Positions 2,358 to 18,275 of a DNA stretch of 20,527 nt are shown one piece after another. The DNA is from a virus. Both the position numbers and the translations under genes were made by a program. Location: IMG/VR virus record IMGVR_UViG_3300028802_000064, positions 1-20,527 of that record, one strand, 5' to 3'. The notes below the pieces were generated by a model. The model searched no databases, was not told the DNA's origin, and saw only the letters and a list, made by a program, of their open reading frames with translations. The stretch's first letter is position 1; each line of letters begins with the position of its first letter.

Positions 2358-3005
2358 TTAAACGCTCCAGAGTCGGTAACTATTGAGGATTTGCTGCACC
2401 TCGTTTGGCATTGCCGCCGATTGTGTAGTCATATCCATACCGAAATAGGTTTCCGCGACCACATCCGGAATGGTCTGCGACTTCAGCATTGGATTGTGCC
2501 CACGGGTAGTCCACCGGGAGGACAGCCACTGAAGGCACGCTCCCTGGACATCCTCCGGGATAAGCTCAAACCCGGCCTCGTAATCGACCACCACCAAAGC
2601 GCCGGCCCAAGCCGCTGCGGCACTGCCTCCATTCAATCGGTACAGATGCCCCGGATGGGAATACACCTCCCACCCGGTGATCGAAGATCCATCCTCGATC
2701 ACAGTAAGGATCGGGACACCAGCCACCATCACGATCGGGCGCTGTCGGGTTACCAATGGCTCGCCCGCCCCCAACCAATTAGATGGCATGCGGAACTGGT
2801 CGCGATAGCTCTGCCGCACAAACACCCGATCGCAATAGGTATTGATGGCGGCGCTAACCTGGGCGATCTGCACCCCGAGCGTGCCGTCCTGTGACGTATC
2901 ACTCGCCGGGATTTGCAGGAAATCCTTTGCCATCTCGACCGACACCAGGGCAAAGGTTGCCGCCGGCTCGATCACGGTGGAGATATGATAGTTTAACGGT
3001 GGCAT
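2358..3005 (-). CDS. Head-tail connector protein (gp6-like)
   Basis: A 215-residue protein of the phage gp6-like connector type, expected to form a ring beneath the portal. Features seen: an early VSVEMAKDFLQIP segment (the typical l-s-leeaK-hLri motif), D-x-x-L-x-x-x-I-x-x-A-x-x-x-I-x-x-Y helix (DGTLGVQIAQVSAAINTYCD) then VFVRQSYRDQFRMP, the conserved ending of the family's N-terminal domain. A beta-rich middle (IVMVAGVPILTVIEDG) and a YEAGFELIPEDVQGACLQW segment with a helical end follow; these match the longer alphaproteobacterial variants of about 200 residues. ATG at 3003-3005 overlaps the previous stop (TGATG). Strong assignment. Confidence 0.85.
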   Translation of the reverse strand: MPPLNYHISTVIEPAATFALVSVEMAKDFLQIPASDTSQDGTLGVQIAQVSAAINTYCDRVFVRQSYRDQFRMPSNWLGAGEPLVTRQRPIVMVAGVPILTVIEDGSSITGWEVYSHPGHLYRLNGGSAAAAWAGALVVVDYEAGFELIPEDVQGACLQWLSSRWTTRGHNPMLKSQTIPDVVAETYFGMDMTTQSAAMPNEVQQILNSYRLWSV

Positions 3006-3355
3006 CAGTTAACCGTGCGTTTGGAGATCGTGATCAACCCGCGCATTACCGTAGCCTCATTGCCGGCAGCTTCAGTCACAATCAATTCATGCTCGCAAGT
3101 CAGCGCACCAAGAACCTCGGTGTCGGGAGCCTCGACATAGATTGTCAACAAACCCTCGCCGATCGAGGTCACCTCAATTTGAGTAGGGTCCGTACTCGAC
3201 TTATTAATCAGCTGCACCACCCCCTGCTTACTGACGATCCACTCAACGATGGTATCGAGAAGGTTCAACGGGGTTGTGTTATCAGCTTCAAACAATGCGA
3301 CTGCCAATTGGTAATCGCGTCCTGCGTCGATCGTAAAATCCTGCCGAGAAGTCAT
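3005..3355 (-). CDS. Small beta-rich virion protein, BppU N-terminal-like
   Basis: A 116-residue protein of predicted beta-sandwich type. The opening FTIDAGRDYQLAVALFEADN followed by TTPLNLLDTIVEWIV resembles the fold pattern of baseplate/upper-protein N-domains: a GD/RDY turn, then p-l-L, then a v-w-v strand. The end, with CEHELIVTEAAGNEATVMRG and LITISKRTV, fits the closing strands seen in that pattern. I cannot name a precise family. ATG at 3353-3355 overlaps the previous stop (ATGA), and its own stop overlaps the connector start, so it is translationally coupled on both sides. Such small proteins next to connectors are often anchor or decoration subunits for fibres in the same operon; that role is inference here. 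Confidence 0.6.
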   Translation of the reverse strand: MTSRQDFTIDAGRDYQLAVALFEADNTTPLNLLDTIVEWIVSKQGVVQLINKSSTDPTQIEVTSIGEGLLTIYVEAPDTEVLGALTCEHELIVTEAAGNEATVMRGLITISKRTVN

Positions 3356-3798
3356 AATCCCAGCCCCCTCCGCTCCTTTTGTCGCGCTTCCAACATACGC
3401 TGGCGTACCTTTTCCGGTTCGTCACTATGACCGTCCGCGTAGGCTTCCAATACCGCTTGCTCCATTGCGGTCTGGATAGCGTGCTTGACCACCGGGTATT
3501 TCGAGTTCACCGATATACCGACTGACTTTTCCACCTTTGGGTACAGTCTCTCGGCACGCGACTTTAGATGATCGGGCAGTTGCGATGGATACCCCTGGTC
3601 AATCAGCCATCGATGCGAATAGGACCGCAACCTGAGCGGCACAGTCGCCGCTGTGGTACGAGCCATATGCAATGCCACCAAGACCTCGCCACGAGTAGCC
3701 GGCACCGGCAAACCGGGCCACATCCGCCCCCAGGCACGCACCATCCCCTCGATGTCGAGTTCGATCAGACAGCGCCTTATCTCATCGGAAACAAGCAT
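3352..3798 (-). CDS. Unknown phage protein between fibre and connector genes
   Basis: A 148-residue protein that I do not recognise with confidence. It is mostly helical and charged: MLVSDEIRRCLIELDIEG at the start, WGRMWPGLPVPATRGEVLVALHMAR in the middle (not longer than shown), and a basic C-terminus with EKVRQRMLEARQKERRG. Similar soluble helical proteins occur in structural modules of proteobacterial prophages, without known function. I start it at ATG 3796-3798, seven bases after the stop of the tail-fibre-type gene. An in-frame GTG at 3816 would give six more residues but overlaps that stop, and neither start has a strong ribosome site. Its stop overlaps the next start (ATGA), so it belongs to the operon. 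Confidence 0.6.
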   Translation of the reverse strand: MLVSDEIRRCLIELDIEGMVRAWGRMWPGLPVPATRGEVLVALHMARTTAATVPLRLRSYSHRWLIDQGYPSQLPDHLKSRAERLYPKVEKSVGISVNSKYPVVKHAIQTAMEQAVLEAYADGHSDEPEKVRQRMLEARQKERRGLGL

Positions 3799-3805
3799 GC
3801 AGTAA

Positions 3806-4240
3806 TCAGTCCACACTCAGAGTCGTTGCAACCGTGAGATGCGGAGTTACCGCCGACCCACAGACAATACTTGGAGTAATTGAACCGTACATAAATATAA
3901 TAGCCGCACCACCACCAGTCTTTCCTGTACTAAAATCCGTAGCAGTACCCGAACCTCCGGTCCCGGCTGGAAAATCAATTTGTGCCGCCGGAGAAATCAC
4001 TCCAGTGGTCGCAGTTGTCCATCCAGTAGACCTAGCCACATTGACGCGCGCATATGAAGAATAGGCGATCTCGTTGGTTGACATAGTGCCAGCGTCAGCT
4101 GGGCCAGGAGTAGAATGCAGAGCAACGTGAATATTCGTGAGTGGAGTACCTGCGGCGTTGTCAGCTACGTTGGCCCACGCCGTGGCACTATAGATCAGGT
4201 TGAGCAAAGAATTCTCTGCACTGTCGCTAAATCCAGGCAT
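3806..4240 (-). CDS. Small phage tail-fibre-type protein
   Basis: A 144-residue protein resembling the small proteins annotated as phage tail fibre protein in many proteobacterial phages. The pattern is MPGFSDSAENSLLNLIY, then a T.IHVALHSTPGP strand, EIAYSSYARVNVAR, IDFPAGTG and a GGGAAIIFMYGSIT strand. The family pattern reads N-x-L-L-D then y-v-aLst-p-D-G then Y-a-R-v-v then F-p-a-a then G-n-l-l-y-g-L. The C-terminus AVTPHLTVATTLSVD is also typical (a final weakly hydrophobic strand). It starts at ATG 4238-4240. A GGAGAG site inside the last codons of the giant upstream gene serves it, with a one-base gap between the genes. It probably works with the giant protein as a fibre subunit or cap, which is inference from adjacency. 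Confidence 0.65.
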   Translation of the reverse strand: MPGFSDSAENSLLNLIYSATAWANVADNAAGTPLTNIHVALHSTPGPADAGTMSTNEIAYSSYARVNVARSTGWTTATTGVISPAAQIDFPAGTGGSGTATDFSTGKTGGGAAIIFMYGSITPSIVCGSAVTPHLTVATTLSVD

Positions 4241-4241
4241 T

Positions 4242-4424
4242 TTACTCTCCGATATTGCCAGTTAGATCGACTTTGGCCGTTCGATTGCCGGTGAGCGAGA
4301 TCACATTATCCCGTTCTCCTGTCAATTTCGTGACAGCCGGCAGATTTCCCTTAAGCGTAACTTCGGGATTATACTGCCCCACCAAGGAAATCGGAACCGG
4401 CAGATACCCACGCAGATCGATTGT
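4242..4424 (-). repeat. Six C-terminal ten-residue (xLxG) repeats of the giant protein
   Basis: Residues 1882-1941 read as six units, TIDLRGYLPVP, ISLVGQYNPE, VTLKGNLPAV, TKLTGERDNV, ISLTGNRTAK and VDLTGNIGE. Each has a hydrophobic-x-Leu-x-Gly core. The regular ten-residue step suggests a short beta-solenoid or stacked-strand cap. The composition differs sharply from the Ala/Gly repeat before it. Confidence 0.75.
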
Positions 4425-7400
4425 CTTGACGATCGAACCGGGTTCGACCGAAAAACTGACCCCCTGCCCATGTGCCGCCGAAATCGCGACCGACCCGACA
4501 TCCAGCACCCCCGCCGCAATCCCGACTGCGGTTCCCGCTGCAATACCATCACTACGGGCATCCGATCGTCCAGCAGCTGTAGCGGTCGAGGTAGCGATCC
4601 CGCTACCGATAACCAGTACAACCGCGCGGCCAAACCCAGTACCAAGTGCTACACCGTCAGACCGGACATCCAGCCTGCCAGACCCAATGGCTACACTTAT
4701 CCCGACTGCATCGCCGGCTGACCGGACATCTGTCCGACTGCTGGCAACAACTGTAGCTACACCTGTCGCCGACCCTATTGGGATCGCATCGGATCGGCCA
4801 GTTGACTGGGTTGTGCTGGTCGCTACCGATGCAGCTGTACCTGTACCATCCCCTTGGCCGGTCGCAGCCGCAACACCTGTCCCCGCCGCTAAACCAGCTA
4901 CCCGGCTATCACTGCGCCCAGTTGCCGTTGCCGCGCTGGTAGCTGCGGCGTTCCCTTCAGAATACCCGACATCGGCCAGACCAGTGCCGCTACCGATCGC
5001 TACCGCAGATCCGGTAGCAACCCCATCCCCGCGACCTGTTGCCGTAGCTGCGCTAGCTGCCAGGACCGCACCAACCGCAGTCCCATCTCCGCGACCTGTC
5101 GCTGCCGCCACACCGACAGCTGCGGCATGCCCTTCCGAATACCCGACATCAGCCAGACTAGCGGCATTGCTGGTTGCTACCGCAGACCCGGTGGCAACCC
5201 CATCCCCTCGACCAGTTGCCGTAGCTGTACCAGCCGCCAGGACCGCGCCAACCGCAATCCCATCCCCGCGACCTGTCGCTGCGGCAATCCCTGCCCCAGT
5301 TGCCGCACCCGCCCCATAAGCGTCCAGGCTGGAGGTGGATGCACCCGTAACTGTCGCAACCGCAGCCGCCAATCCGGCAACAACAGCGTCAGCCCGTCCG
5401 GTAGCACCCGCAGTACCCAACCCGGCAGCGGCACCCACAGCAAACAGATCAAGCTGTGAGGATGAAGCACCGACCGCAGCACCAAGTCCGAATGCTGCAC
5501 CGACAGCCGGTATATCACTACGCCCGCTCGCGGTTGCGGTACTAACCGCAGCGGCTGAACCAGACCCCGAATGATCGATCTGAAACGTTGCCGATCCAGT
5601 TACGGTCGCGACACTTACTGCCGCCCCCACAACCACTGTATCGGCCCGCCCAGCGGCACCAGACGCACTTAACGCTGATGCCGCACCCTGACCTACCCCG
5701 TCGCCCCGACCAACCCCCAGAGCCACCGCTGTGGCATCTGCTTGACCTTGGCTAAACCCAACAGCCGCTAAACCAACTGCCTCACTGGTCGCGGCGGCTG
5801 ACCCGGCCCGCGCAACATCGCTGCGGGAACTTGCGCTAGCGGTCCCAACCGCTGTTGCCGTCCCAGCCCGAACCTGCCCGGTTGCACTGATACTCGCCGC
5901 TTGACCAACAACCGCAGCTAGACCCTGACCAGTTGCATCACTTCGACCGCTTGCGGTAGCAGTACTAGACGCTGTTGCCGTACCAGCCCGGTTCAACCCG
6001 GTCGATGCACTCGCAACAGCTGCACCTATCGCTGTCGCTGCACCAGCACCCGAGACATGAAGCTCTGAGGTCGATGCGCCAGTTGCCGTCCCGGTTGCAG
6101 CAACTAGACCCTGACCACCTACATCACTGCGACCACTTGCGCTAGCGGTGCTAGTCGCTGCCGCAATACCCTGACGAACCTGCCCGGTCGATGTCGTACC
6201 AGCTGCCAGCGCAACCGATGCGGCTGATCCGGGCTGTCTTACATCACTGCGACTACCGGCACTCGCTGTACCAACCGCTGCCGCGATACCCTGACGAACC
6301 TGCCCGGTCGAAGCAGCACCAGTTGCTAGCGCAACCGATGCGGCTGACCCAGGCTGTCTTACATCACTGCTACCCCCGGCTGTTGCCGTACCAACCGCTG
6401 CCGCAATACCTGGGCGATTTTGCCCGGTGCGACCAGTTGCGGCAGCATTCGCGATGGCGGCAGCTGTACCAGCCCCAGAAACATCTGTACCAGCCGGTGA
6501 AATACCCGTCGCGGTAGAAACAGCCGATGCCGTTCCGACCCCGGTGTCAGTGACAGCAACATAAGGCTTAAACGCAAATATATTAGTGGCGACTTGATTG
6601 GCACCACTGGCAGTCCAAGTAGCCGTTACCGTGGCAAGCGACGGTTGAACTTTATATGCCGACGCTGTAGTAAAATTAACCGCACCGACACCAGCACCGG
6701 ATGCTACAATATTGAGGCCGCCGGTAACGGACGTAAATAAAAGCGGGTTATCACCAGCAGCCGTGCTGATGACCAACTCATTCGCTTGATCTGTTGTTAA
6801 ACTTGCCCCTACCGGGTTTGCACCTGTTGCCCCCTGTATTTCATCGAACGTCCAAGGGCCAGCAATAGAAAATGCTAATAACTCAGCGGAGCAGTAAGTG
6901 TCTAGACCACTATATGTAACCGAATGTCCTGAACCAACATTAGGCGTTTGAGAGTTGACGTAATAGACATAATCGCGAATTGAACCATTGTCTGTGTGAC
7001 CGAGAACCGTCCAAGTATTGCCTTTGCTATCACTTATTGTGGGAATGTTGAAATTGGTGACATGCAAAACTAAAAGATTAGCGCCGGTTGTATCTGCTGA
7101 GTTGGTAGCGCCACCATTCTGACCACCATAGCCTTGGGCGTGGGCTACAAGGCGAGTGCCTGTAAGACCAAGATCAAGACCGACATACGACTCATTTTGA
7201 ACAGCACTCTGTGACCAAGGACCACCAGCAGGACTATAGGCAGCAGCAACGTCAGTAGTACCCGCAATTAGTGTTACGGGTCCAGAATCAGCCCATAATT
7301 GACCACCAGATACAACAGAAGCTACCACTAGATAGCTGGTAAGATCACTTAGTATAATCTCCGGTATTTCGGCGTAATACCAATTACCTGCCGTACTGCC

Positions 7401-10067
7401 GGTTAAATCAATATCAACCCCACGGATCGGCGTGCCTATCGGGGTGCCATCACCTCCTGTAAAATAGTGAAGACCAACCGTGTGAAGACCAGTGTTACCG
7501 GATTCAGCACGAATGCCCATCCGATTATAGCGATGTTCGGTGATAGTGTCGGTTCTAAACTTGAAACCAAAATACCCATTGAAAGAATTGGTAGGTGCCC
7601 CCGGAGTATAAGCACTAACCAGATGAGACATCGCAGATACTGCAACTGGCGAAACACCAATTGCTGTACTCGTAGCCGATGCAGTCCCTACTCCTGTATT
7701 AGTTGTTGCTAAACCTACGCCACTCGCAACACCTAAAGCTGATGCAGTCCCAGTTCCGGTATCAGCAGCGGCAGCGGGCGCGACACCAACAGCAGAACTG
7801 GTCGCACTCGCTGTACCAACTGACGCATTAGCATCAAGCCAAGTACCAATGTATCCTTGAGTGGTGACGCCAGCGTTGCCCGACCCAAACCACCAAGGTT
7901 CTAAAGTTCCAGCCGAATGCCGTATAAAATACGCGACTGACGTAGCGTAATTATTTGCACCCGGCCCAATGGTATTTAAGATCGTAGTACCAGCTTCTAC
8001 CCCCGCCGGACTAGAAGCACCGGAGAATGAAGTAATGATCAATTCGTCTGGAAAGTACTGAGTAATAGGTCCGCCGCCGTGCGGTAATGCACCTTGCCCG
8101 ACCCCAAGCTGGTCGAAGCCTACGCCCGTGCTACTCCTCCAGGCCAGGAACTGGATCGCGATCTTGCCGCCAGCACCAAGTACGGTAACGGTATGACCCG
8201 GCCCAACCTTGATACCACTAAGGGCGGCGTTGTATGTACGCTCCCGGCAAACCGCACCGGATGCAGCATCGCTTATCGGAGTATTGATAAGCCAGTTATT
8301 GCCTTTATTGTCCGATACGGTAAAGAAGTTTACAGCGACATCGTGCGAGAAATGCAGAAACAGCATATTCGCGCCCGACGTATCTATCGGATCGGTAGTA
8401 CCTCCATCAGCAGTTGGAAACGCTTTATTCGATTGCGCAATCAGACCAAGCGGATACGGTGCAGACCGCGCGTATCCAGTACTAGTCGCGCGTGCTGTGC
8501 CGACAGAGGCATTATCATCAATCCAGACACCACTAAGAGCCTGGGTAATTACCGCCGCGTTGCCGGTGGCAAGACCATCAACACCACCAGTCCAAATTGG
8601 ATTAACATTACCGGAACTGGATGTGGTATAAAAAGCGTAAGCAGCCCCCCAACTTTCACCAACCGGAAGATTAGAAGCGATAAAACCAGAACTAACAGAA
8701 AATATATTGTTAGTACCACCTACCCCGGTGATGATTAAATCACCGGCATTTGCAAAGAAAGGGGTAGTACCATGCGGTAATGCACCTTGCGCTACCGCTA
8801 TACTTCCGTAAGAAAAAGTCCCCGCGTACCTAAAAGCAGAAACCTGAATTGAAACATTTGAATTTACGCTGGTAACAGTAAATGTATGATTAGGCCCAAC
8901 TTTGGCACCGCCGCCGGTAAAAGGGCTAACGCTATAAACTCGGAGACGTAAATTCGGTCCAGACGCAGCATTTGTAACCGTGTTATCAAACTGCCAGGTA
9001 TTACCTTTATTATCGCTGACGCTAAAAACCCCAGCAGCTATATTTTCGCTTGTTTGTAAAAGGATAAAATTCGCTCCCGACGTATCAATCGGGTCTGTTG
9101 TACCTCCATCGGGAGTAGGAAATGTTTTGCTAGTTCGCGCAATCAGACCTAAAGGATAAGCACCGGCTACCGTTGAACCTGTTGCGGTAGCCACGCTAAT
9201 AGCGGTGGCTGATCCAACACCGTATATATCTGCTGTTGCCAGCCCTTCGGCTGCTACAGTGCCAACGGCAGTTCCGGAACCAGATCGAGAAGTATCACTA
9301 GATCCTCGACCGTCAACCGCCCCAACAGCCGCCGCAGAACCGACGATACGTTTGCCGGTATTACCGCCGGCTGTTACCGTACTGGTCGCCGTAGAAACAG
9401 CCCTGGCTGTATCAATAACACCTTGTCGAAAAGTAGCTACGATCTGCACACCGCCGGTAATTGTACCGGATGAAGCAAAGACCGGCGTAACGGAAGTGGT
9501 GGCAGCAACTACCTGATACCCAATCGTAGACGAACAGGCGTTGTTAGTGTTAGCAGCCGCCGATAAAGTATTAATAGCCAGCGTATTCGGCGAGGTAGCC
9601 GTTGCCGTCTGGCATCGGATCAACCCAAGACCAGCAACGATAAGCTCGTTAGCTTGCGACAGAACGGTTGTCGCAGCACAAGTGTAAGGTGTTGCCGCAT
9701 CGACAGTGTTAGCGGGAGCGCGATCTAACGGTGTGCTGGTAAACGGTCCTTCATAAACCGCGACCGAAATTGCGTGGTCATTTGAAGAACTGGTCATGAC
9801 ACAACTGACCTGGGTCAGTGTGCCGGCGACCGTTACATATCGGTAATACCCTCTAAGACCAACACTAGAAAGCGTGCCGGCATTTATTGCGGTGTAAGTT
9901 TGTCCGAGATTGTCGGTAACCGTTGTAACGGTATTGGCCGCTGCTTCGGCAACCATCACAACAATAAGATCTTGTATGCTTACCGCAACACTACCATCAG
10001 CCGTTTCCGGCGTAACAATGCTAGTACCGAACCCTGTTAATGTACCTCTGAGTCCACCGAACGCCAC
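4242..10067 (-). CDS. Giant 1941-residue multidomain repeat protein (putative fibre/adhesin)
   Basis: No full-length family is recognised. Residues about 1-217, 303-520, 537-750 and 972-1168 are four related beta-sandwich-type domains. Each carries a (V/I)(S/T)D(N/S)xG(N/Q)(T/N)(W/Y) turn (TDNLGQTY, SDNKGNTW, SDNKGNNW, SDSKGNTW) and a later (D/N)ELI(V/I)-like strand. Residues about 813-968 form a different beta domain (GYFGFKF, TVGLHYF, YLVVASVV), like the non-enzymatic beta-jelly modules of surface proteins. Residues about 1174-1860 are ~34 Ala/Gly/Ser repeats of about 20 residues with GR(S/G)D turns; short runs of similar sequence also link the earlier domains. Residues 1882-1941 are six ten-residue units ending xLxG. 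There is no signal peptide, membrane segment or enzyme motif. The start is GTG at 10065-10067 with GGGGA upstream, 6 bases after the collagen gene stop. A virion fibre or host-surface adhesin is the best guess. Confidence 0.75.
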   Translation of the reverse strand: MAFGGLRGTLTGFGTSIVTPETADGSVAVSIQDLIVVMVAEAAANTVTTVTDNLGQTYTAINAGTLSSVGLRGYYRYVTVAGTLTQVSCVMTSSSNDHAISVAVYEGPFTSTPLDRAPANTVDAATPYTCAATTVLSQANELIVAGLGLIRCQTATATSPNTLAINTLSAAANTNNACSSTIGYQVVAATTSVTPVFASSGTITGGVQIVATFRQGVIDTARAVSTATSTVTAGGNTGKRIVGSAAAVGAVDGRGSSDTSRSGSGTAVGTVAAEGLATADIYGVGSATAISVATATGSTVAGAYPLGLIARTSKTFPTPDGGTTDPIDTSGANFILLQTSENIAAGVFSVSDNKGNTWQFDNTVTNAASGPNLRLRVYSVSPFTGGGAKVGPNHTFTVTSVNSNVSIQVSAFRYAGTFSYGSIAVAQGALPHGTTPFFANAGDLIITGVGGTNNIFSVSSGFIASNLPVGESWGAAYAFYTTSSSGNVNPIWTGGVDGLATGNAAVITQALSGVWIDDNASVGTARATSTGYARSAPYPLGLIAQSNKAFPTADGGTTDPIDTSGANMLFLHFSHDVAVNFFTVSDNKGNNWLINTPISDAASGAVCRERTYNAALSGIKVGPGHTVTVLGAGGKIAIQFLAWRSSTGVGFDQLGVGQGALPHGGGPITQYFPDELIITSFSGASSPAGVEAGTTILNTIGPGANNYATSVAYFIRHSAGTLEPWWFGSGNAGVTTQGYIGTWLDANASVGTASATSSAVGVAPAAAADTGTGTASALGVASGVGLATTNTGVGTASATSTAIGVSPVAVSAMSHLVSAYTPGAPTNSFNGYFGFKFRTDTITEHRYNRMGIRAESGNTGLHTVGLHYFTGGDGTPIGTPIRGVDIDLTGSTAGNWYYAEIPEIILSDLTSYLVVASVVSGGQLWADSGPVTLIAGTTDVAAAYSPAGGPWSQSAVQNESYVGLDLGLTGTRLVAHAQGYGGQNGGATNSADTTGANLLVLHVTNFNIPTISDSKGNTWTVLGHTDNGSIRDYVYYVNSQTPNVGSGHSVTYSGLDTYCSAELLAFSIAGPWTFDEIQGATGANPVGASLTTDQANELVISTAAGDNPLLFTSVTGGLNIVASGAGVGAVNFTTASAYKVQPSLATVTATWTASGANQVATNIFAFKPYVAVTDTGVGTASAVSTATGISPAGTDVSGAGTAAAIANAAATGRTGQNRPGIAAAVGTATAGGSSDVRQPGSAASVALATGAASTGQVRQGIAAAVGTASAGSRSDVRQPGSAASVALAAGTTSTGQVRQGIAAATSTASASGRSDVGGQGLVAATGTATGASTSELHVSGAGAATAIGAAVASASTGLNRAGTATASSTATASGRSDATGQGLAAVVGQAASISATGQVRAGTATAVGTASASSRSDVARAGSAAATSEAVGLAAVGFSQGQADATAVALGVGRGDGVGQGAASALSASGAAGRADTVVVGAAVSVATVTGSATFQIDHSGSGSAAAVSTATASGRSDIPAVGAAFGLGAAVGASSSQLDLFAVGAAAGLGTAGATGRADAVVAGLAAAVATVTGASTSSLDAYGAGAATGAGIAAATGRGDGIAVGAVLAAGTATATGRGDGVATGSAVATSNAASLADVGYSEGHAAAVGVAAATGRGDGTAVGAVLAASAATATGRGDGVATGSAVAIGSGTGLADVGYSEGNAAATSAATATGRSDSRVAGLAAGTGVAAATGQGDGTGTAASVATSTTQSTGRSDAIPIGSATGVATVVASSRTDVRSAGDAVGISVAIGSGRLDVRSDGVALGTGFGRAVVLVIGSGIATSTATAAGRSDARSDGIAAGTAVGIAAGVLDVGSVAISAAHGQGVSFSVEPGSIVKTIDLRGYLPVPISLVGQYNPEVTLKGNLPAVTKLTGERDNVISLTGNRTAKVDLTGNIGE
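4954..5310 (-). repeat. 177-base duplicated block (three protein repeat units) in the giant gene
   Basis: The plus-strand motif CCTTC(A/C)GAATACCCGACATC occurs at 4954 and again at 5131, and the sequence following it stays alignable. The encoded unit is 59 residues: GRGDG(I/T)AVG, GRGDGVATGSAVA and ADVGYSEG(H/N) in that order, present twice. Confidence 0.7.
6121..6430 (-). repeat. 120-base tandem duplication inside the giant gene
   Basis: On the plus strand ACATCACTGC recurs at 6121, 6241 and 6361, and TGCCCGGT at 6181, 6301 and 6421. The spacing is exactly 120 bases with high identity between copies. This equals two 20-residue protein units (a GQVRQG unit plus an RSDVRQPG unit), which points to recent unequal recombination in register with the reading frame. 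Confidence 0.75.
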
Positions 10068-10073
10068 GGGATG

Positions 10074-11795
10074 TTATCCCCGGTCTTCATTATACTGCGC
10101 AAAACACTCTCTCAGATCGAGCGATGGGCCTAACGTGCCGTCGCTCATTACCGGCACAGCCTGATACCCCTTCACCTCCCAATCGGCAATTGTCAAAGCT
10201 GGCGCACCGGGTAGCCCTCTATCACCCCGCTCACCCTTCTCGCCTTTATTCCCCCGCTCTCCTTTCTGTGCCGACAAGGCCCAACCCTCACCAGGGAGAT
10301 CGCCGGGGTCATCCTGCTTGGCGCGCCACTCAGCTCCGTTCAAAACAACAATATCGAACTTCCGGTACTTTCTGCCGGTCTTGTACAGACCGCAGACATC
10401 GCCGGCATACGGGGTTTCCCCCGCTTCACCCTTAGAGGCGATTAGGAGCCAATCCTCATGAGGCGGCTCTTCACCCGTATCTCGTGCGGCGCAATAGGTC
10501 GAACCCTGATGCATCACCAGATCGGATTCGTAATGCACCCCGCGCCGCCACAACCGCAATGCACTAAATTTACCGGGCACACCCTCTGGCCCAATATCCC
10601 CACGTTCGCCCTTAGCCCCAGGCTCACCCCTCTCACCGGGGTCACCTTTCTCTGCCGGCGGCAACGCATTGACCGCATCGACAACCGCATCCACCACCAG
10701 CTGTTGAACCACATACTCATCGGGCAATGGTCCCTGCGGACCTACCGGCCCAATCTCCCCCGGATCACCCTTCTCTCCGCGCTCGCCTGGAAGACCGGGT
10801 TCTGCCGGCGGCAATCGGGAAACTGCCCGTTCAACCGCTTCAGCGAGTAGCTCCTCATCCGGGGCCGGTCCCATTGGCCCAGGATCGCCTCTTTCACCTT
10901 TCGGGCCTATCGGCCCCGCAATACTCTCCCCTGGCTCGCCCGGCTCGCCACGCTCGCCCTGCGGACCAACAATGCTATCTCCCGGCTCGCCCCGCTCACC
11001 CTGCGGGCCAACAATGCTCTCTCCCGGCATCCCAGGATCGCCACGCTCACCCGGCTCCCCACGCTCGCCCTGCGGGCCAACAATGCTCTCTCCCGGCTCC
11101 CCAGGCTCACCCCGCTCCCCAGGATCGCCGGGTGGGCCGACAACACTTTGCCCGGGCACCCCTGGTTCGCCCCGCTCCCCCTGCGGACCAGCAGGACCGG
11201 CGGGACCAATCACACTTTCGCCACGTTCGCCCTGCGGGCCATCCTTTCCCGGCAATCCCTGGGGGCCAAGAGGACCGGGTGGACCCAGATAACCTAAACC
11301 CGGCTCTCCAGGCTCGCCACGTTCGCCCTGTATACCGGGATCACCGATCGCCCCCCTCTGTCCCGGCGCTCCAGGCTCACCCCTCTCTCCTGGCGGGCCA
11401 GCAGGACCGATCGGTCCTACAATGCTTTCCCCCGGATCGCCCCGCTCACCTTGCGGTCCTATTTCCCCCGGCGACCCCGGTAACCCATCCTTGCCATCAA
11501 TACCGTTTAAACCGTCCTTACCATCTTGGATGATCGCCAGCTTCTCGGCATACATCTGATGGATCTGTAGCGTCAGATTAGCAACCTTAGCTTCAAGCTC
11601 CGCAATCGCTCGCCGGCTCTCCACTTGAGCTAATTCTCTCTCCGATCGCCATTCATGCCGTTGCTGCGCCAGGACTTGTCCCAACGCATCGGCAAAGGCG
11701 TCAGGTAATGTGCCGTTTGGCATCAAATCGGTCAGCGGCATGGATGATCTGGCCGATCCATTGCTCCTGTTGTTTTTCTCCTGGCTGACCGTCAT
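10074..11795 (-). CDS. Collagen-like virion protein with two chitin-binding-type modules
   Basis: A 573-residue protein. Residues 1-40 are polar, and 40-88 form a probable coiled coil ([20 protein letters not shown]). Gly-X-Y triple-helix blocks lie at about 92-310, 334-356, 383-409 and 512-530. Two acidic helical breaks lie at 311-332 ([19 protein letters not shown]) and 357-382. Residues about 413-455 and 466-511 each show the CBM5/12-like pattern: (R/K)xG.xY...D.V...G..Y/W.A..D, then P..GW/DW.L.A.KG. The C-terminus ends [20 protein letters not shown]. It should form a trimeric fibre whose end binds polysaccharide. I start it at ATG 11793-11795 because AAGGAG lies 9 bases upstream. That puts its first 95 bases inside the portal gene. 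ATGs at 11741 and 11723 lack a ribosome site. The frame extends to 11885 but with an implausible His/Arg-rich lead. Confidence 0.82.
10866..11522 (-). repeat. Main collagen Gly-X-Y tract with spaced interruptions
   Basis: About 219 residues of Gly-X-Y, rich in GERGEPG and GPQG, with seven breaks of the form G(E/Q/D)S(I/V)(V/I/A)G. At DNA level, GC-rich near-repeats of about 50-70 bases recur across the tract. Confidence 0.85.
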
Positions 11796-13131
11796 CGGTA
11801 CTATCTCCTTCCGGTCCCGATGCCGGCGGTGATGAAGGTGGAGCGTCTGGTGCTGGTGTGGCGGGCGGGGCTTGCGCCCAAGCACTCAAAGGTACAACCT
11901 GTTGTTGTACTCTTGGTTCATCCCCAAACGGCATTGCAGGCAGATCTTCTTTAGCCCTCGCTTCGTTAGGACTATAGATCCCGCCCTGGACACCCCGCGC
12001 TAATGCCTCAACCCGATCTTTGAAGTTAGCTCTTAGCAATGCTTCCAGATCGAGTTCAACATAATCATCCGGCCAACCGGCCAACTGAAACAATCGACCA
12101 ATGGCATCTTCGATAAGGTTGGCGGCAAAACCAAGACCCGTGCTGACCCAGAACGCCATCAAGCTCTCGGTCGAACCCTGCGGCCCCGCCGCCGATTGCA
12201 AACTCAGCAATGCCAGCGGCACCCGATATGCCGTTGCCACCCGTTGATCGGAGATCTGAAGGAATTCGGCTAGTTGCTGATCTCGCGAAGTCACAATCGC
12301 GGATGACCACTTCAACCCGGCTGTCAGGATCGGTGTGCCGCCCTGGTTCGCCCCGGCAGTCTGGGCATTCCACATCCGCCGCACTTCCGCGACAGCCTCA
12401 CGGTCGAGCTTCAGATCGGTTTCAATGACCCCGGAAGGACGCCCTTGATTAGAGGCATATGCCAAAGCCTGGGCGATCATCGAATTCGATGCCGCCACCT
12501 CCATCAAGGCCGCTTGCAATGGCGGCACCCCGATCAACGGATTGCGCTTATCCGGCAGACGCACATGCAATACATCTCTGGCCGGCACCGCACTCAACAG
12601 ATCGAGATTACCAGCGAACTTCCGCTCGACAATCTCGCTACCGGACATGTAGTAGAACAATTCCCCGGTGGTCGAAATTCTCGGATAGCATAACCGGGGG
12701 TCCATCAGATGGATTTCGGTGATCTCAAACCGGGCATTACGCAATGCCAACCCGAAAGCCTCACCCTCGCCATATAAACAATCGGTCAGATATAAAAAGA
12801 AGTCAGCTGTCGATTGGTATGAATTGGGTTTACGCAACACCCGACACAATGCCGATGTAGTATAACGTTCGCGCCCACCCTTACCATCGCTCTCCCAATG
12901 AGTGGGAGGACACATCGCGATGGTTTGCGAATAGGCGTTCTGACAGGCATAGACAACCGCCGACCCGCCACTGGTGAGCGGATCGCGTCCGGTCTGCCAA
13001 AAATTGAGCGGCCAATCGCTGGGAACAACCCCGCCGGTAAACGGCAACGAATGCCCCAACTGCTTTGGAATGCCGCGAAAGGGGCGAACCAGTGCCGCCC
13101 CTGCCCGCGAGATAATGCCGGGAACAGGCAT
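11701..13131 (-). CDS. Portal protein, HK97 family
   Basis: A 476-residue portal of the HK97 gp3 type, forming the dodecameric ring at the capsid vertex through which DNA is packaged. Recognisable features in order: GGSAVVYACQNAYSQTIA near residue 55 (family: A-v-x-aci-xxia-x-va), a P-N-x-x-x-t-x-x-F segment (LRKPNSYQSTADFFLYLTD), GEGEAFGLALRN, HVRLPDKRNPLIGVPPLQAA, then GRPSGVIETD, the DQQLAEFLQISDQRVATAYRVP segment (shown in two parts: DQQLAEFLQ and ATAYRVPLALL), and GIYSPNEARAKEDLPAM. The tail after about residue 420 is Pro/Ser-rich and disordered, and its last 31 codons overlap the collagen-like gene. ATG at 13129-13131 overlaps the previous stop (TAATG). It lies downstream of the capsid gene instead of between terminase and protease, an unusual order. 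Confidence 0.92.
   Translation of the reverse strand: MPVPGIISRAGAALVRPFRGIPKQLGHSLPFTGGVVPSDWPLNFWQTGRDPLTSGGSAVVYACQNAYSQTIAMCPPTHWESDGKGGRERYTTSALCRVLRKPNSYQSTADFFLYLTDCLYGEGEAFGLALRNARFEITEIHLMDPRLCYPRISTTGELFYYMSGSEIVERKFAGNLDLLSAVPARDVLHVRLPDKRNPLIGVPPLQAALMEVAASNSMIAQALAYASNQGRPSGVIETDLKLDREAVAEVRRMWNAQTAGANQGGTPILTAGLKWSSAIVTSRDQQLAEFLQISDQRVATAYRVPLALLSLQSAAGPQGSTESLMAFWVSTGLGFAANLIEDAIGRLFQLAGWPDDYVELDLEALLRANFKDRVEALARGVQGGIYSPNEARAKEDLPAMPFGDEPRVQQQVVPLSAWAQAPPATPAPDAPPSSPPASGPEGDSTDDGQPGEKQQEQWIGQIIHAADRFDAKRHIT
11805..11810 (-). promoter_or_regulatory. Ribosome binding site for the collagen-like gene, inside the portal gene
   Basis: The minus strand reads AAGGAG, nine bases, then ATG at 11795. 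It lies in the coding sequence of the portal C-terminus and is the reason for choosing the overlapping start. Confidence 0.7.
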
Positions 13132-13811
13132 TACCGCTTCGGTGCCGTTGGAACCGTGCGGGTTTGATAGCCTGGGGTGTTTTCGCCGGCAGTTATCTCA
13201 CGCTCACGAACCGCGCCACCAGCAGCTTCAACAGTCACAACATTCGATACCGGAGCCACAGTTGACCCCAGCGCGTTGAAGGCGGTTACGATGCAGGAGA
13301 TTCCCTTACCGGCATCGCCAGCCGCGACAACGTAAGTTGAACCCGTGGCAGTATTAGACGAACCGTCCGTCTGCCAATCGTATGAATAATTGGTAGGCTC
13401 GTTCTCCCAATTACCCATAGTACAAGTAAGTGCAGATCCAACAGTCCCGGCACCACTGACATGCGGCACATCACGATTGACCGGCGGCGCAGCTGGACCT
13501 TCCGGCAACTCTGAACCCGGCGGCTCAGTCGGCACCGCTTGGTCTAGCAATGCTTGCTGAACCTCAAGCGGCGGCATAGTCGGAACGTCATGTACTTCCT
13601 TTTCGTCAAAAGTGATTTCACCCAGGATGAACTTATCGACATCAGCCGCTGTCGGGGTTGGCACTGTGGTGTTCATCACCGTTTCGGCTTCTAGGTTAAG
13701 CGCCGCACGCACCTGTTCCTCGGTAAACTCTTCATCCGCCTCGTATGCCGTCTGCACCTCTCGCAAGGTCATCTGCTTCTCTTCTTTAACTTCTTGCTCA
13801 CGCGCCCGCAT
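13131..13811 (-). CDS. Virion protein with Ig-like domain and charged N-terminal arm
   Basis: A 226-residue protein. Residues 1-15 are highly charged, 15-60 look helical (LREVQTAYEADEEFTEEQVR), 60-115 are Pro/Glu-rich. Residues about 118-195 form an Ig-like domain with LTCTMGNW, YSYDWQTDG and GISCIVTAFNALG. This domain closely matches the one at the end of the 557-1087 protein, including the paired cysteines. The final 30 residues form a basic tail. ATG at 13809-13811 has a full AGGAGGA site four bases upstream. It sits directly before the portal gene and overlaps it by one base. Likely a capsid or neck decoration protein; the copy near the tail tube probably decorates a second site. That role is inference from domain and position. 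Confidence 0.7.
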   Translation of the reverse strand: MRAREQEVKEEKQMTLREVQTAYEADEEFTEEQVRAALNLEAETVMNTTVPTPTAADVDKFILGEITFDEKEVHDVPTMPPLEVQQALLDQAVPTEPPGSELPEGPAAPPVNRDVPHVSGAGTVGSALTCTMGNWENEPTNYSYDWQTDGSSNTATGSTYVVAAGDAGKGISCIVTAFNALGSTVAPVSNVVTVEAAGGAVREREITAGENTPGYQTRTVPTAPKR

Positions 13812-14913: not shown

Positions 14914-16242
14914 CTAACTACCGAACCCCGCCTCCTTAAAGTCACCCTTAATCACCTGATAACTACCATCCAGATTGTCGATAACCCTAACCTCCTGCCG
15001 CGACACCAATCCGACAAACTCAAAGTAATCATCAACCTGCTTCTGATACGCCGCCTTTAACCAACACAACTTGTCAAACAAATACGGATCGCAACCCAAC
15101 GGCTGCGCCGTCACCTTTAAGGGCGATACCCCTTGCTTCCCTGGAATTGTTCCAATCTGATATGTCAAAGCGTCGATCTGCGACACCATGTAGGAGTAAC
15201 GATTGCGCGTATCATTAAGCACATGATAGAAGGCGCGATCCGCCATTTCCTGCATCGCCGACACATCGAGAATGCGCTTTAGCACATCGTCAACATTGGA
15301 ATAGTCAGGATTAATCGGAACGTAATGTTCTTCCGGTTCTACCACCCCGGAATAGTTCCCCCTCAATAACGCCAAAGCGGTCTTTTGTGCAACCGCCTCA
15401 AATATACGAGCCGACACCTGACCCATATCGTGAGCAACTTCATACGGCAATAATTCATCCCGTACTTCTTGATACGGTAACCCCGGCTTCGCATTCCATC
15501 TCTCGGTCATCCGGCAATCCAGACTGCCGTCAAAATCAAACACATTCGCGCCAGATGGCGTACCCAGATGGACCCGGCAATTGCGAACAAACCCCAGCCA
15601 CGCCTCGCCAGTAAACCGCTTCTCTTCATCCACCTCGATGTCGCACACCACCCCAGCCCTGGCGCAAGCCCGTTTAAACTGATCGGCAATCTCGGTCTTA
15701 TGCCACCCCAAATCACCCAACCGATACGGTAACGCGCGACCCCGGTAACCCAACGCGATCGGGCGCTCTGCCAATGGCAGAATTTCCGCCGGATCAACCG
15801 CCATCAATTCATCCGACAAATATGCCGTTTGTATCGTGCGCAAGTAGATCCGATCAAATTCCGGCTCAGAATAAATGTCCCGCACCCCAACCTGCGGCAC
15901 ACACGTTAAAACCGCATCAACCCCGATCTGCAATAAGAAAACCTTAGTCCGATTGACGAAATCATATTCATCCTGCACCGACGCTATCTTAACGCCGCCA
16001 TATCGCCGCAACCCCGAAATCAGCAACATCATAAAAGGTGGCGGGTCTATCCGATTAACGCTAACCACACAGTAATTAATATAAACAGCATCGTAAGCGG
16101 AGAAGTCCAACTTACCGCCATATGACTGATCCACGTTAAAATAATCAACATCAAAAGCGGAATAACGACTAATAGCCGAAAGATAGTGATGGACTGTCGG
16201 CGTATAAGTAAAGCCAGCATGATAAAGCACGAGAAGACGCAT
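14914..16242 (-). CDS. Glycosyltransferase, GT-B fold (CgeB / Glyco_trans_1_2-like)
   Basis: A 442-residue protein. Residues 1-150 form an N-terminal Rossmann-like half (RLLVLYHAG; YDAVYINYCVVS; VKIASVQDEYDF). Residues 161-350 form the nucleotide-sugar half: RPIALGYRGRALPYRLGD, then RNCRVHLGTPSGANVFDFDG at 220-239, then ARIFEAVAQKTALALL at 278-293 and YSGVVEPEEHYVPI at 297-310, ending with an R..Y.Y clasp (NRYSYMVSQID). The RxxEA-G/K-x-x-L then P-x-x-H-Y/e-i-x-V sequence is the hallmark of the glycosyl-transferase 1 C-terminal type used by CgeB-like proteins. It is expected to move a sugar from a nucleotide sugar to an acceptor; the substrate is unknown. ATG at 16240-16242 with a weak GGTGAG site. 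It follows an intrinsic terminator after the capsid gene, so it is probably expressed at a lower level. Confidence 0.72.
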   Translation of the reverse strand: MRLLVLYHAGFTYTPTVHHYLSAISRYSAFDVDYFNVDQSYGGKLDFSAYDAVYINYCVVSVNRIDPPPFMMLLISGLRRYGGVKIASVQDEYDFVNRTKVFLLQIGVDAVLTCVPQVGVRDIYSEPEFDRIYLRTIQTAYLSDELMAVDPAEILPLAERPIALGYRGRALPYRLGDLGWHKTEIADQFKRACARAGVVCDIEVDEEKRFTGEAWLGFVRNCRVHLGTPSGANVFDFDGSLDCRMTERWNAKPGLPYQEVRDELLPYEVAHDMGQVSARIFEAVAQKTALALLRGNYSGVVEPEEHYVPINPDYSNVDDVLKRILDVSAMQEMADRAFYHVLNDTRNRYSYMVSQIDALTYQIGTIPGKQGVSPLKVTAQPLGCDPYLFDKLCWLKAAYQKQVDDYFEFVGLVSRQEVRVIDNLDGSYQVIKGDFKEAGFGS

Positions 16243-16313: not shown

Positions 16314-18275
16314 CTACCAAGTGACAGTCTGAGTCCACGCGACAACACCAGTGCGCCGCATGTCCCAAGAAATATCGAGCATCATCCGCACCGCAATGCT
16401 GTCGGTCTGCCACAGCGAACGCACCGGGGCAGCGACCGTATTGGGAGTACCAACTGAGGCGATCGCAGTTGGAGTAGTGTCTTCCATATGCAGAGTCGCC
16501 TGATCGGAAACACTGAACTGCGGCTCGTCACCCGTCGCTGAGAAGAAGTCAGCCGCATCAATCAAGATCACCATCTTCGCCGGCATGGTGGTCGATTGAA
16601 TAATCGGATAACCCTGCAAGCGACCCCCGTTGGCTTCAATCTGGAACGGGAAATCACCGCCGGCATTCTGGGTCAAAGTAAGACTCAGAACATCGACCGG
16701 GTTCATGATCCAGACCGGACTGCGCAACGAATTCGACGCTGCCAAGACACCAACCAGATTTTTGATATCCCCGACCAGTGCATTGAACCCGCCGCCAGCC
16801 GTGGCAGTGGTCGCAGCCACATTGTACCGCAACCCAGGAGGACGCAATGTGCTGCCGATCGTTGCATCAAGCAGCACAGTGTCCAGCGCCACAGCCGTAT
16901 CATCCTGCATCATCTGCCGGATCTGCTGTTCGATCGCGGGCGTGCTGTGTTCCATGATCTGACGGGTGAAGGTCGAAATAACACCCATCTTCCTGGGGGT
17001 CAGCGTGATCGCCGAGAAGGCACCCTGACGCACCGGAATAGCCGCACCTTCCGCCACAAACGCACCCGCGAGATTGGGCGTGGGATTGCGGCGTGGCAGG
17101 CTAACCACACCATTGCGGCCAAAGGTGAACCGCCCACCCCGAGCCGACAGCGCCGGATAAACCGATGACGGCATCAGGCTATCGATAAAGTCACCAATCG
17201 CCGTCTGCACCAGTTCCGCTGCCCACCCCACCATCGTAGTGGTCGCCGGCACCGATGCAGCCCGCAATACCGTGGCATTCGCGACAACACGGGTAGGCTC
17301 ATCATCGCCATACTGCTCACGCAGTACGTCCGGAATGGACTTGTGCGTGATATGCGACATCAAAGCCGCCGTCAGCCCCCGGTACACATAATCGACCGGC
17401 TTAACTTCCTTCTTCGGCAAAGCAAAAGGCCGGCGGGTTTCACCAGCCCGTTGGACCGCTTTGTCGATAGTCGTAGTGATAGCGTCGCTCTTGGCCCCCA
17501 TCACCGCCTCCGACGCCCTAAGCATATCGAGATGCCGAGCTTCGGTGGTCAACCGCAAATTCAACTCCTCACCAACCGTGAGGTGCTGTTCGTCAGGAGC
17601 ATCATCACCAAAATCTTTGCCGTTATGAGCCGAGATTTTGTCCTTAAGATCGTTTACGCGAGTTTGAGACTGTTCAATCTTCTCCGAGAGAGACATGTTT
17701 CGTTTCCCGACATTCGGGTGATCTTCGGCAGACTTGCCAGATAGGTCGCGGTGGGTTACCTCATCGTTATCGGCGGTCTTGCCAAAGATAAGGTTAATCG
17801 TTTCACGAGATATATTCAGATTCTTAGCGATCTGAATGGCGTTGGGATTAGCTGGAACGGCAACAATCGAACATTCAACAAGCTCATGCTCGATGAATCG
17901 ATAGCCACCCTTCTTGCTATCCGGTAATGGTTCATACTTAAGCGGCTTAAAGCCGACTGAAACGGCACGCAGCACCCCGCCCTTCACCGCTGCGTGGATC
18001 TCTTGCAGCCTGGGTGATACCGGCGGCAACAACTCAAGCGTGCCGCGCAATTGGTTGCCCTTGACCTTTACATCCCTCCACTTCCCCACCGGGAAGTGCG
18101 AGTCATGGCCGAACAACGCGATCGGGTTCTTCTCGAAATTGACCAGCTGCCACCCAGCTTGATCGATCATGTCCCCCAGACGATCGATCGAATCATCCGA
18201 CATGATATATTCAAGGTTGTCCCCATCCGGGGCAGGCGCAGCGGCGATTTTATTGACAATCTCCAGATTTCTCAT
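16314..18275 (-). CDS. Fused prohead protease / scaffold / major capsid protein, HK97 type
   Basis: A 653-residue fusion. Residues 1-150 are the HK97 prohead protease: RLGDMIDQAGWQLVNFEKNP, catalytic His57 in LFGHDSHFPVGKW, catalytic Ser106 in AVSVGF, and ELVECSIVAVPANPNA at 131-146 with an acidic residue as the likely third catalytic member. Residues about 194-285 form a coiled-coil delta/scaffold domain (EKIEQSQTRVNDLKDKI). Residues about 290-653 are the HK97-fold capsid protein: VAEGAAIPVRQGAFSAITLT at 407-424, KMGVISTFTRQI at 429-440, then a spine helix and the P-domain. The protease would cut the scaffold at assembly and also itself free. ATG 18273-18275 overlaps the large terminase stop (ATGA) with GGAG ten bases upstream. 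An internal ATG at 17696 could give a separate capsid product but has a poor ribosome site. Confidence 0.9.
   Translation of the reverse strand: MRNLEIVNKIAAAPAPDGDNLEYIMSDDSIDRLGDMIDQAGWQLVNFEKNPIALFGHDSHFPVGKWRDVKVKGNQLRGTLELLPPVSPRLQEIHAAVKGGVLRAVSVGFKPLKYEPLPDSKKGGYRFIEHELVECSIVAVPANPNAIQIAKNLNISRETINLIFGKTADNDEVTHRDLSGKSAEDHPNVGKRNMSLSEKIEQSQTRVNDLKDKISAHNGKDFGDDAPDEQHLTVGEELNLRLTTEARHLDMLRASEAVMGAKSDAITTTIDKAVQRAGETRRPFALPKKEVKPVDYVYRGLTAALMSHITHKSIPDVLREQYGDDEPTRVVANATVLRAASVPATTTMVGWAAELVQTAIGDFIDSLMPSSVYPALSARGGRFTFGRNGVVSLPRRNPTPNLAGAFVAEGAAIPVRQGAFSAITLTPRKMGVISTFTRQIMEHSTPAIEQQIRQMMQDDTAVALDTVLLDATIGSTLRPPGLRYNVAATTATAGGGFNALVGDIKNLVGVLAASNSLRSPVWIMNPVDVLSLTLTQNAGGDFPFQIEANGGRLQGYPIIQSTTMPAKMVILIDAADFFSATGDEPQFSVSDQATLHMEDTTPTAIASVGTPNTVAAPVRSLWQTDSIAVRMMLDISWDMRRTGVVAWTQTVTW

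Follow-up and report, generated by a model that had tools for sequence, protein, structure and literature searches.

A giant repeat protein encoded next to a Gp80-family gene

The stretch of DNA analysed here (the window; virus record IMGVR_UViG_3300028802_000064, 20,527 bases) comes from a public viral-contig collection and is a 20.5-kb fragment only. Its main genes all lie on the minus strand, in the order large terminase, fused protease-capsid protein, portal, collagen-like fibre, a 1,941-amino-acid (aa) protein designated P0001, a Gp80-family protein, a 154-aa protein, a 116-aa protein, and then head-tail connector and tail genes, these last being named by eye. P0001, the putative rope/adhesin protein studied here, is read from position 10067 to 4242 in an open frame with a GTG start; this start is kept in relatives from other viral contigs, which begin at the first residue of P0001 with MAFGxL. 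The next gene downstream (3806..4240, minus strand) encodes a 144-aa protein of the Gp80 bead family, which matches Pfam PF23140, titled 'Podophage GP4 fiber I protein gp80' (E = 8e-11; 42.8 bits against a cut-off of 27), and phrog_240, annotated 'head protein' (E = 7e-7).

A preliminary description of P0001, made from the sequence alone, had proposed four related beta domains with an SDNKGNTW-type turn, an unrelated fifth domain, and short linkers resembling a long C-terminal repeat. A family profile placed the four blocks within ~10 residues of the boundaries first given, at residues 8-220 (block 1, 9408..10046), 304-516 (block 2, 8520..9158), 538-742 (block 3, 7842..8456) and 969-1175 (block 4, 6543..7163; all P0001 features are on the minus strand). 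Pairwise BLOSUM62 local scores, compared with the best of 300 shuffles, clearly joined blocks 2 and 3 (427 vs. 73), 2 and 4 (192 vs. 86) and 3 and 4 (202 vs. 77). Block 1 scored weakly against blocks 2 (85 vs. 75) and 4 (75 vs. 71), and its similarity to block 3 was not significant in this pairwise test. A profile built without any block 1 row nevertheless recovered block 1 of the window at 50.7 bits (E = 1.8e-15 among 207 sequences), whereas 200 shuffled versions reached no more than 2.9 bits. By these scores, blocks 2-4 are obvious homologues and block 1, the conserved N-terminal domain of this rope subfamily, is a diverged fourth copy.

The fifth globular domain, now placed at residues 807-968 (7164..7649) rather than 813-968, is unrelated to the blocks as had been proposed, with no score above shuffles against any of them; searches with it gave no Pfam match, no relative among viral contigs and, in PDB sequences, nothing below E = 0.1. 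The array-like character of the linkers was borne out for residues 218-302, which hold three 20-residue repeats of the C-terminal type (residues 234-295, 9183..9368; score 38.8 vs. a shuffle maximum of 15.3) and which AlphaFold, run on the lone chain, left unfolded (predicted local distance difference test, pLDDT, <40). For residues 743-806 (7650..7841), rope-like in composition, the repeat fit is suggestive, its score lying below the shuffle maximum (22.6 vs. 24.5).

The rope array itself (4515..6557), delimited by repeat spacing and conserved positions, comprises 33 tandem 20-residue repeats at residues 1191-1851 with the consensus TGRSDVxxxGxAAAVGTATA, or 35 repeats under a looser whole-protein fit from residue 1171. 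Spacing is exactly 20 in 23 of the 32 intervals, and G10 (32/33), A12 (29/33) and D5 (23/33) are the conserved positions. The array is of low complexity (A 27%, G 18%), with small residues alternating at repeat positions 10-20. The 14-residue YadA type of repeat was rejected, the strongest lags being 40 and 20, and Pfam gave no Collagen (G-X-Y triplet) match to P0001, whereas the neighbouring gene at 10074-11885 has one. As read from the sequence, the C-terminal tail (residues 1863-1941, 4245..4481) consists of short strand-like repeats of xLTGN/xLKGN type; comparable short C-terminal repeats occur in ropes of cultured phages.

A 20-residue period often accompanies Gp80 genes

If the 20-residue unit is what carries Gp80 beads, this period would be expected beside Gp80 genes generally. 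Gp80 loci were therefore collected in two further scans of up to 80 loci each; with narrow search patterns, these confirmed at least 566 Gp80-family relatives in the first and 343 in the second. For 126 non-redundant Gp80 loci with at least five same-strand neighbours, we computed the z score of identity autocorrelation at each lag for neighbours within five genes of Gp80. At z ≥ 4, a lag-20 neighbour was found in 78 of the 126 loci, whereas the other lags between 15 and 26 gave 2-13 loci apiece; at z ≥ 6 the numbers were 57 for lag 20 and 0-8 for other lags. Genes farther than five positions from Gp80 gave a lag-20 signal in 7 of 50 loci. Across loci, a lag-20 protein was present in 92 of 156 with Gp80 and in 3 of 36 without (Fisher p = 1.5e-8, an optimistic value as the loci are partly related, although the contrast between lag 20 and other lags is drawn within the same loci). 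The Gp80-free loci had mostly been fetched for the SDNKGNTW domain, and their 3/36 at lag 20 is no more than at lag 21. The period is thus generally associated with Gp80 genes.

The known fibre of this kind is fibre I of the Ralstonia podophage GP4. Its PDB entry (8JOU) contains 10 Gp80 chains and three chains of a 93-aa adaptor (chain D), and in the abstract of their 2023 GP4 structure paper, Zheng et al. reportedly present five Gp80 dimers as being held together by a 'rope protein'. Our comparison with the GP4 rope was made through GP4-like relatives. In BcepIL02 the gene order is gp55 (the Gp80 homologue), gp56 (285 aa) and gp57 (92 aa; a match to 8JOU chain D at E = 2.9e-20), all three being annotated as virion-associated, and gp56, which carries the PHROG label 'virion structural protein', consists of ~11 repeats of near 20 residues. 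Counts for the GP4-like ropes were 11 (BcepIL02), 10 (DC1), 11 (JC1), 11 (Itty13) and 11 (POI1126), each fit lying above its four shuffles, as did that of the BcepMigl rope, a different arrangement with 7 repeats. Thus, a Gp80-family bead gene adjoins a gene for a 20-residue-repeat protein in these phages as in the window, and the 10-11 repeats come close to the 10 Gp80 chains in 8JOU.

A second comparison is offered by the Alishewanella phage LSH1 and by Slicko01. In the LSH1 paper, gp35 is described as resembling the Gp80 of 8JOU, and the spacers of the gp34 adhesin as modelling poorly, for a cause that was not obvious to the authors but was perhaps a repetitive motif (PMC13243795). In Slicko01, protein WGH49683 showed z scores of 6.3 at lag 20 and 6.0 at lag 40, all other lags from 10 to 44 staying at or below 2.8, and it was the sole gene of that phage with a lag-20 z of at least 4, an antisense shadow aside. 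In its units, Asn, Ser, Ile and Asp are abundant instead of Gly and Ala. Near it lies a phrog_240 protein, i.e. one of the same PHROG as the window Gp80, to which Pfam Gp80 matched weakly and below cut-off (18.1 bits). Judging by its size and neighbours, we take WGH49683 to be the gp34-like Slicko01 protein of the LSH1 paper. The LSH1 gp34-gp36/Slicko01 module combines an adhesin or payload protein, whose spacers are long and odd, with a dimeric fibril protein resembling Gp80 and a small immunoglobulin-like (Ig-like) protein; the payload is a polysaccharide-lyase-like beta-helix, whereas that of P0001 is the SDNKGNTW domains, and the relevant passages report no 20-residue repeat (PMC13243795). 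The period offers a possible answer to why adhesin domains of the LSH1/Slicko01 type adjoin long stretches beyond structure prediction. In Lacusarx, two virion proteins of function not assigned map to a region with a Gp80-like gene and an adjoining repeat protein, and are left unnamed in the paper's text (PMC5648845).

P0001 as the probable rope of a bead-on-rope side fibre

Considering the repeat, the bead gene, the comparisons above and the tail-protein company and fold of the SDNKGNTW domain (see below), we think that P0001 probably serves a tailed phage as the rope of a Gp80-type bead-on-rope side fibre, with adhesive heads fused to it and a design like that of GP4 fibre I. The preliminary description had called P0001 a virion-type, bead-on-string adhesion fibre, which the neighbours, the relatives and the adjacent fibre gene support well; its reading of the repeat as a spacer we replace, because the Gp80 gene adjoins and the 20-residue period tracks Gp80, so that the array appears to be the periodic rope type that accompanies Gp80 beads. 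In the arrangement that we infer, the repeats would form an extended chain in which each gives one docking strand to one Gp80 subunit. The beads would then mainly be separate Gp80 subunits, and the four blocks extra heads. Repeat number would set bead number: the 33-35 repeats of the main array, together with a few more in the linkers, would allow the fibre ~3-fold the beads of GP4 fibre I. All five globular domains, the unrelated fifth one included, would be heads, most likely glycan- or surface-binding, any distal position and receptor contact being equally putative, and a small adaptor would probably fix the fibre at the neck or portal vertex.

Several observations weigh against this reading or set P0001 apart from GP4 fibre I. 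There is no detectable sequence similarity between GP4-like ropes and P0001: BcepIL02 gp56 matches phrog_19041 at 3.5e-158, while P0001 matches neither that nor any other PHROG. As judged from sequence, the ropes of P0001 and of the GP4/Bcep22 type seem alike in period and gene order only. GP4-like ropes are also ~280 aa long without large head domains, whereas P0001, at 1,941 aa, combines five globular domains with 33 or more repeats, and GP4 is a podophage, whereas the window phage has an HK97-type head and siphovirus-like connector genes. Whereas 25 other Gp80 loci have the GP4-type 93-aa adaptor (8JOU chain D family), none was found in the 20.5-kb window fragment. A lag-20 neighbour was lacking in 48 of the 126 Gp80 loci, which we attribute to truncation, divergence or a different partner. 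Finally, in the Anabaena phage A-1(L), whose neck fibre (gp82-gp81-gp80) is likewise a side fibre that lines up small bead proteins and ends in a larger one, the beads (gp81 trimers) join head to tail unaided and with no rope, unlike what we propose for P0001, and the distal head did not bind the host (PMC10966104); heads thus need not be primary receptor binders.

P0001 might instead be a single-protein tail fibre or adhesin, its heads mounted on a flexible or self-folding Gly/Ala/Ser/Thr spacer, with the Gp80 adjacency being coincidental or Gp80 being used elsewhere in the virion. Low complexity, the disorder predicted for the linker as a lone chain and the tail-protein-like heads (see below) would all suit such a protein. 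Yet a spacer has no need of an exact period of 20, which is nevertheless seen next to Gp80 in the majority of loci and is rare in other places, and Slicko01 holds it despite a quite different composition; we consider a mere spacer unlikely. The repeats could also fold on themselves as a trimeric or monomeric beta-solenoid shaft with Gp80 at one end only. Alternating small residues at repeat positions 10-20 suit beta structure, and the LSH1 authors obtained low-confidence beta-helix models for the equivalent stretch, although they judged these to be possible hallucinations (PMC13243795). With GP4-type repeats (10-11) approximating the Gp80 chains of the GP4 fibre entry (10), we give a self-folded shaft little credence.

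A role as a head decoration or capsid protein instead of a fibre is highly improbable. The P0001 gene does sit in the head/connector module, between the portal and head-tail connector genes, and phrog_240 is labelled 'head protein'. However, both the Pfam name and the PDB entry put Gp80 in a fibre, and the cassette of relatives is found elsewhere: before tail-fibre-like genes in locus L043 and before an endolysin-like gene in L042 and L044 (numbered loci are from other viral contigs; gene identities by eye), and in the transfer RNA region in Lacusarx.

Returning to the bead-on-rope fibre, the kind is already known from Gp80; what P0001 adds is the giant headed rope, an uncharacterised head domain and the 20-residue rule. 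More broadly, we lean, if only somewhat, towards the 20-residue unit being a general Gp80 docking code across unrelated tailed phages, in which the unit sequence has almost wholly changed, repeat number acts as a length ruler for the side fibre, and heads (SDNKGNTW, LamG, lyase-like beta-helices) are interchangeable, the window rope being among the longest and most decorated. Gp80-family beads are common, whereas their long partner proteins are mostly 'hypothetical' and escape sequence search; if the exact period marks a Gp80 partner, ropes would be recognisable whatever their composition. Were the rule true, the gene would allow fibre length to be predicted and candidate receptor-binding heads to be picked out.

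The SDNKGNTW domain forms a wider family with a predicted tail-protein-like fold

AlphaFold2, given a 45-row alignment, predicted block 3 to be an all-beta domain (mean pLDDT 90.4; predicted template modelling score 0.89). A weaker second model of residues 1-530 (mean pLDDT 67) showed blocks 1 and 2 with strand order much like block 3, giving no sign that the blocks fold differently from one another. A PDB fold search with the block 3 model returned nothing at E = 0.001 or better, whereas a viral model library gave 34 fold matches at E = 0.001; the named ones are tailed-phage proteins, several labelled minor tail protein. Among these, minor tail proteins of Mycobacterium/Gordonia phages (Tweety A5YJY9, Tonenili A0A1C9EHB2) resemble the domain in predicted fold only (Foldseek E = 3e-5 to 2e-3; template modelling score by query 0.64-0.66), at 8-16% identity.

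Neither Pfam nor PHROG gave any match to P0001, and NCBIfam gave a single irrelevant match, far below cut-off and over the repeat array. Likewise, no Pfam or PHROG family consistently covers the domain, none being common to its 36 relatives. The domain therefore remains, as first described, uncharacterised by Pfam, PHROG, NCBIfam and PDB, none of which assigned all blocks to a described fibre family, its closest likeness being the minor-tail-protein models.

A scan of viral contigs with copies 2-4 returned 39 loci, and iterated profiles defined a family of ~190 residues with the consensus ...TTGAxLLV...SDSKGNTWTxLT...VGxGHTFT..., present in 1 to 4 copies in proteins of ~220 to 1,900 aa. By profile, the proteins of the 39 other contigs belong to the same domain family as the P0001 blocks; unlike P0001 with its four copies, they usually have a single, often N-terminal domain in ~220-1,300 aa. 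Elsewhere the domain forms the C-terminus of a Phage-tail_3 tail protein, or stands beside LamG, GDSL lipase, SASA esterase or PASTA domains, companions that speak for surface binding without proving it. With tblastn, we found no relative of P0001, blocks 2-3 or block 1 in cultured phages and none of blocks 2-3 in plasmids, and in two scans across 84,980 genomes of bacteria and archaea neither block 1 nor a single-domain relative turned up a relative.

Three loci show further settings of the domain. At L029:9947-13192, it is followed by an array of another kind, dozens of short RWSVRTxxGDQED-type repeats, and no Gp80 gene was found in that locus. At L169:9432-14156, next to a Gp80 gene and a homologue of the 154-aa protein, lies the gene for a 1,574-aa rope whose N-terminal region is glycine-rich and into which two SDNKGNTW-like domains are inserted (weak profile matches at 389-524 and 657-854). 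The phage of L031, which has Gp80 and a single-SDNKGNTW-domain protein, also encodes in its structural region a sulfotransferase-like protein (L031:2053-2949; by eye, SYPKSGNTWIRMF motif).

Block 1 is the constant element among related ropes

The near-identical relatives L003 and L004 share the architecture of P0001, except that another domain is inserted. When the window is compared with L003, block 1 shows 95% aa identity with saturated synonymous sites (proportion of synonymous differences, pS, 0.76) and a nonsynonymous divergence (dN) of 0.062, which rules out recent transfer and argues for long purifying selection. Elsewhere dN is 0.25 (block 4), 0.27 (Gp80), 0.35 (154-aa protein) and 0.57 (linker and block 2). 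The synonymous divergence (dS) of block 4 (6543-7163) against L003 is 0.79, well below the saturated block 1, Gp80 and 154-aa gene, suggesting later exchange of this head. The L003 insert (L003:5772-6434) had looked by eye like a SPRY domain, for which Pfam and PDB sequence searches gave no support.

In the more distant L042, L043 and L044, block 1 is retained at 60-64% identity, followed by a repeat array; no SDNKGNTW block was detected beyond it in these three, and the inserted domain of L043 was read as LamG-like. Block 1, the only globular domain common to all its relatives, is thus the constant element and the rest exchangeable. Ordinary tail fibres are anchored by their N-terminus. The LSH1 paper, by contrast, models the N-terminal domain as the payload (PMC13243795). 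Block 1 could be either an anchor or a tip for a common receptor.

Cassette partners and neighbouring genes

Downstream of Gp80, the 154-aa protein (3352..3816, minus strand; function not assigned) has homologues in 75 loci, all 75 of which have a Gp80 gene and 42 of which have it at position +1 from Gp80. This pattern marks it as a constant part of one branch of Gp80 cassettes, and it may help fibre assembly. The 116-aa protein that follows (3005..3355, minus strand) matches phrog_1084 (E = 1e-6 in the window and 2e-16 in L043) and could serve as the fibre-to-virion adaptor in place of the GP4-type one.

Further genes of the window lie on the minus strand as well. The terminase is nearest to those of Klebsiella phage KPP5665-2 and Pseudomonas phage PAJU2 (~62% identity). 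Two separate proteins (557-1162 and 13131-13811) share the same Ig-like domain type, with common matches to phrog_12736, phrog_26223 and phrog_36166. The listed start of the collagen-like fibre gene (10074-11885) overlaps the portal gene by ~185 bases, an internal ATG probably being the true start, and its product has a sub-threshold CBM_5_12 match at residues 501-533. Between the capsid and portal genes, 14914-16242 encodes a 442-aa protein that looks glycosyltransferase-like by eye, with no Pfam or PHROG family match; glycosyltransferase annotations also occur near the Gp80 genes of MW202711 and POI1126. Lastly, head maturation protease and major capsid protein are joined in one 653-aa frame (16314-18275), a phrog_80 region being followed by phrog_617/phrog_10.

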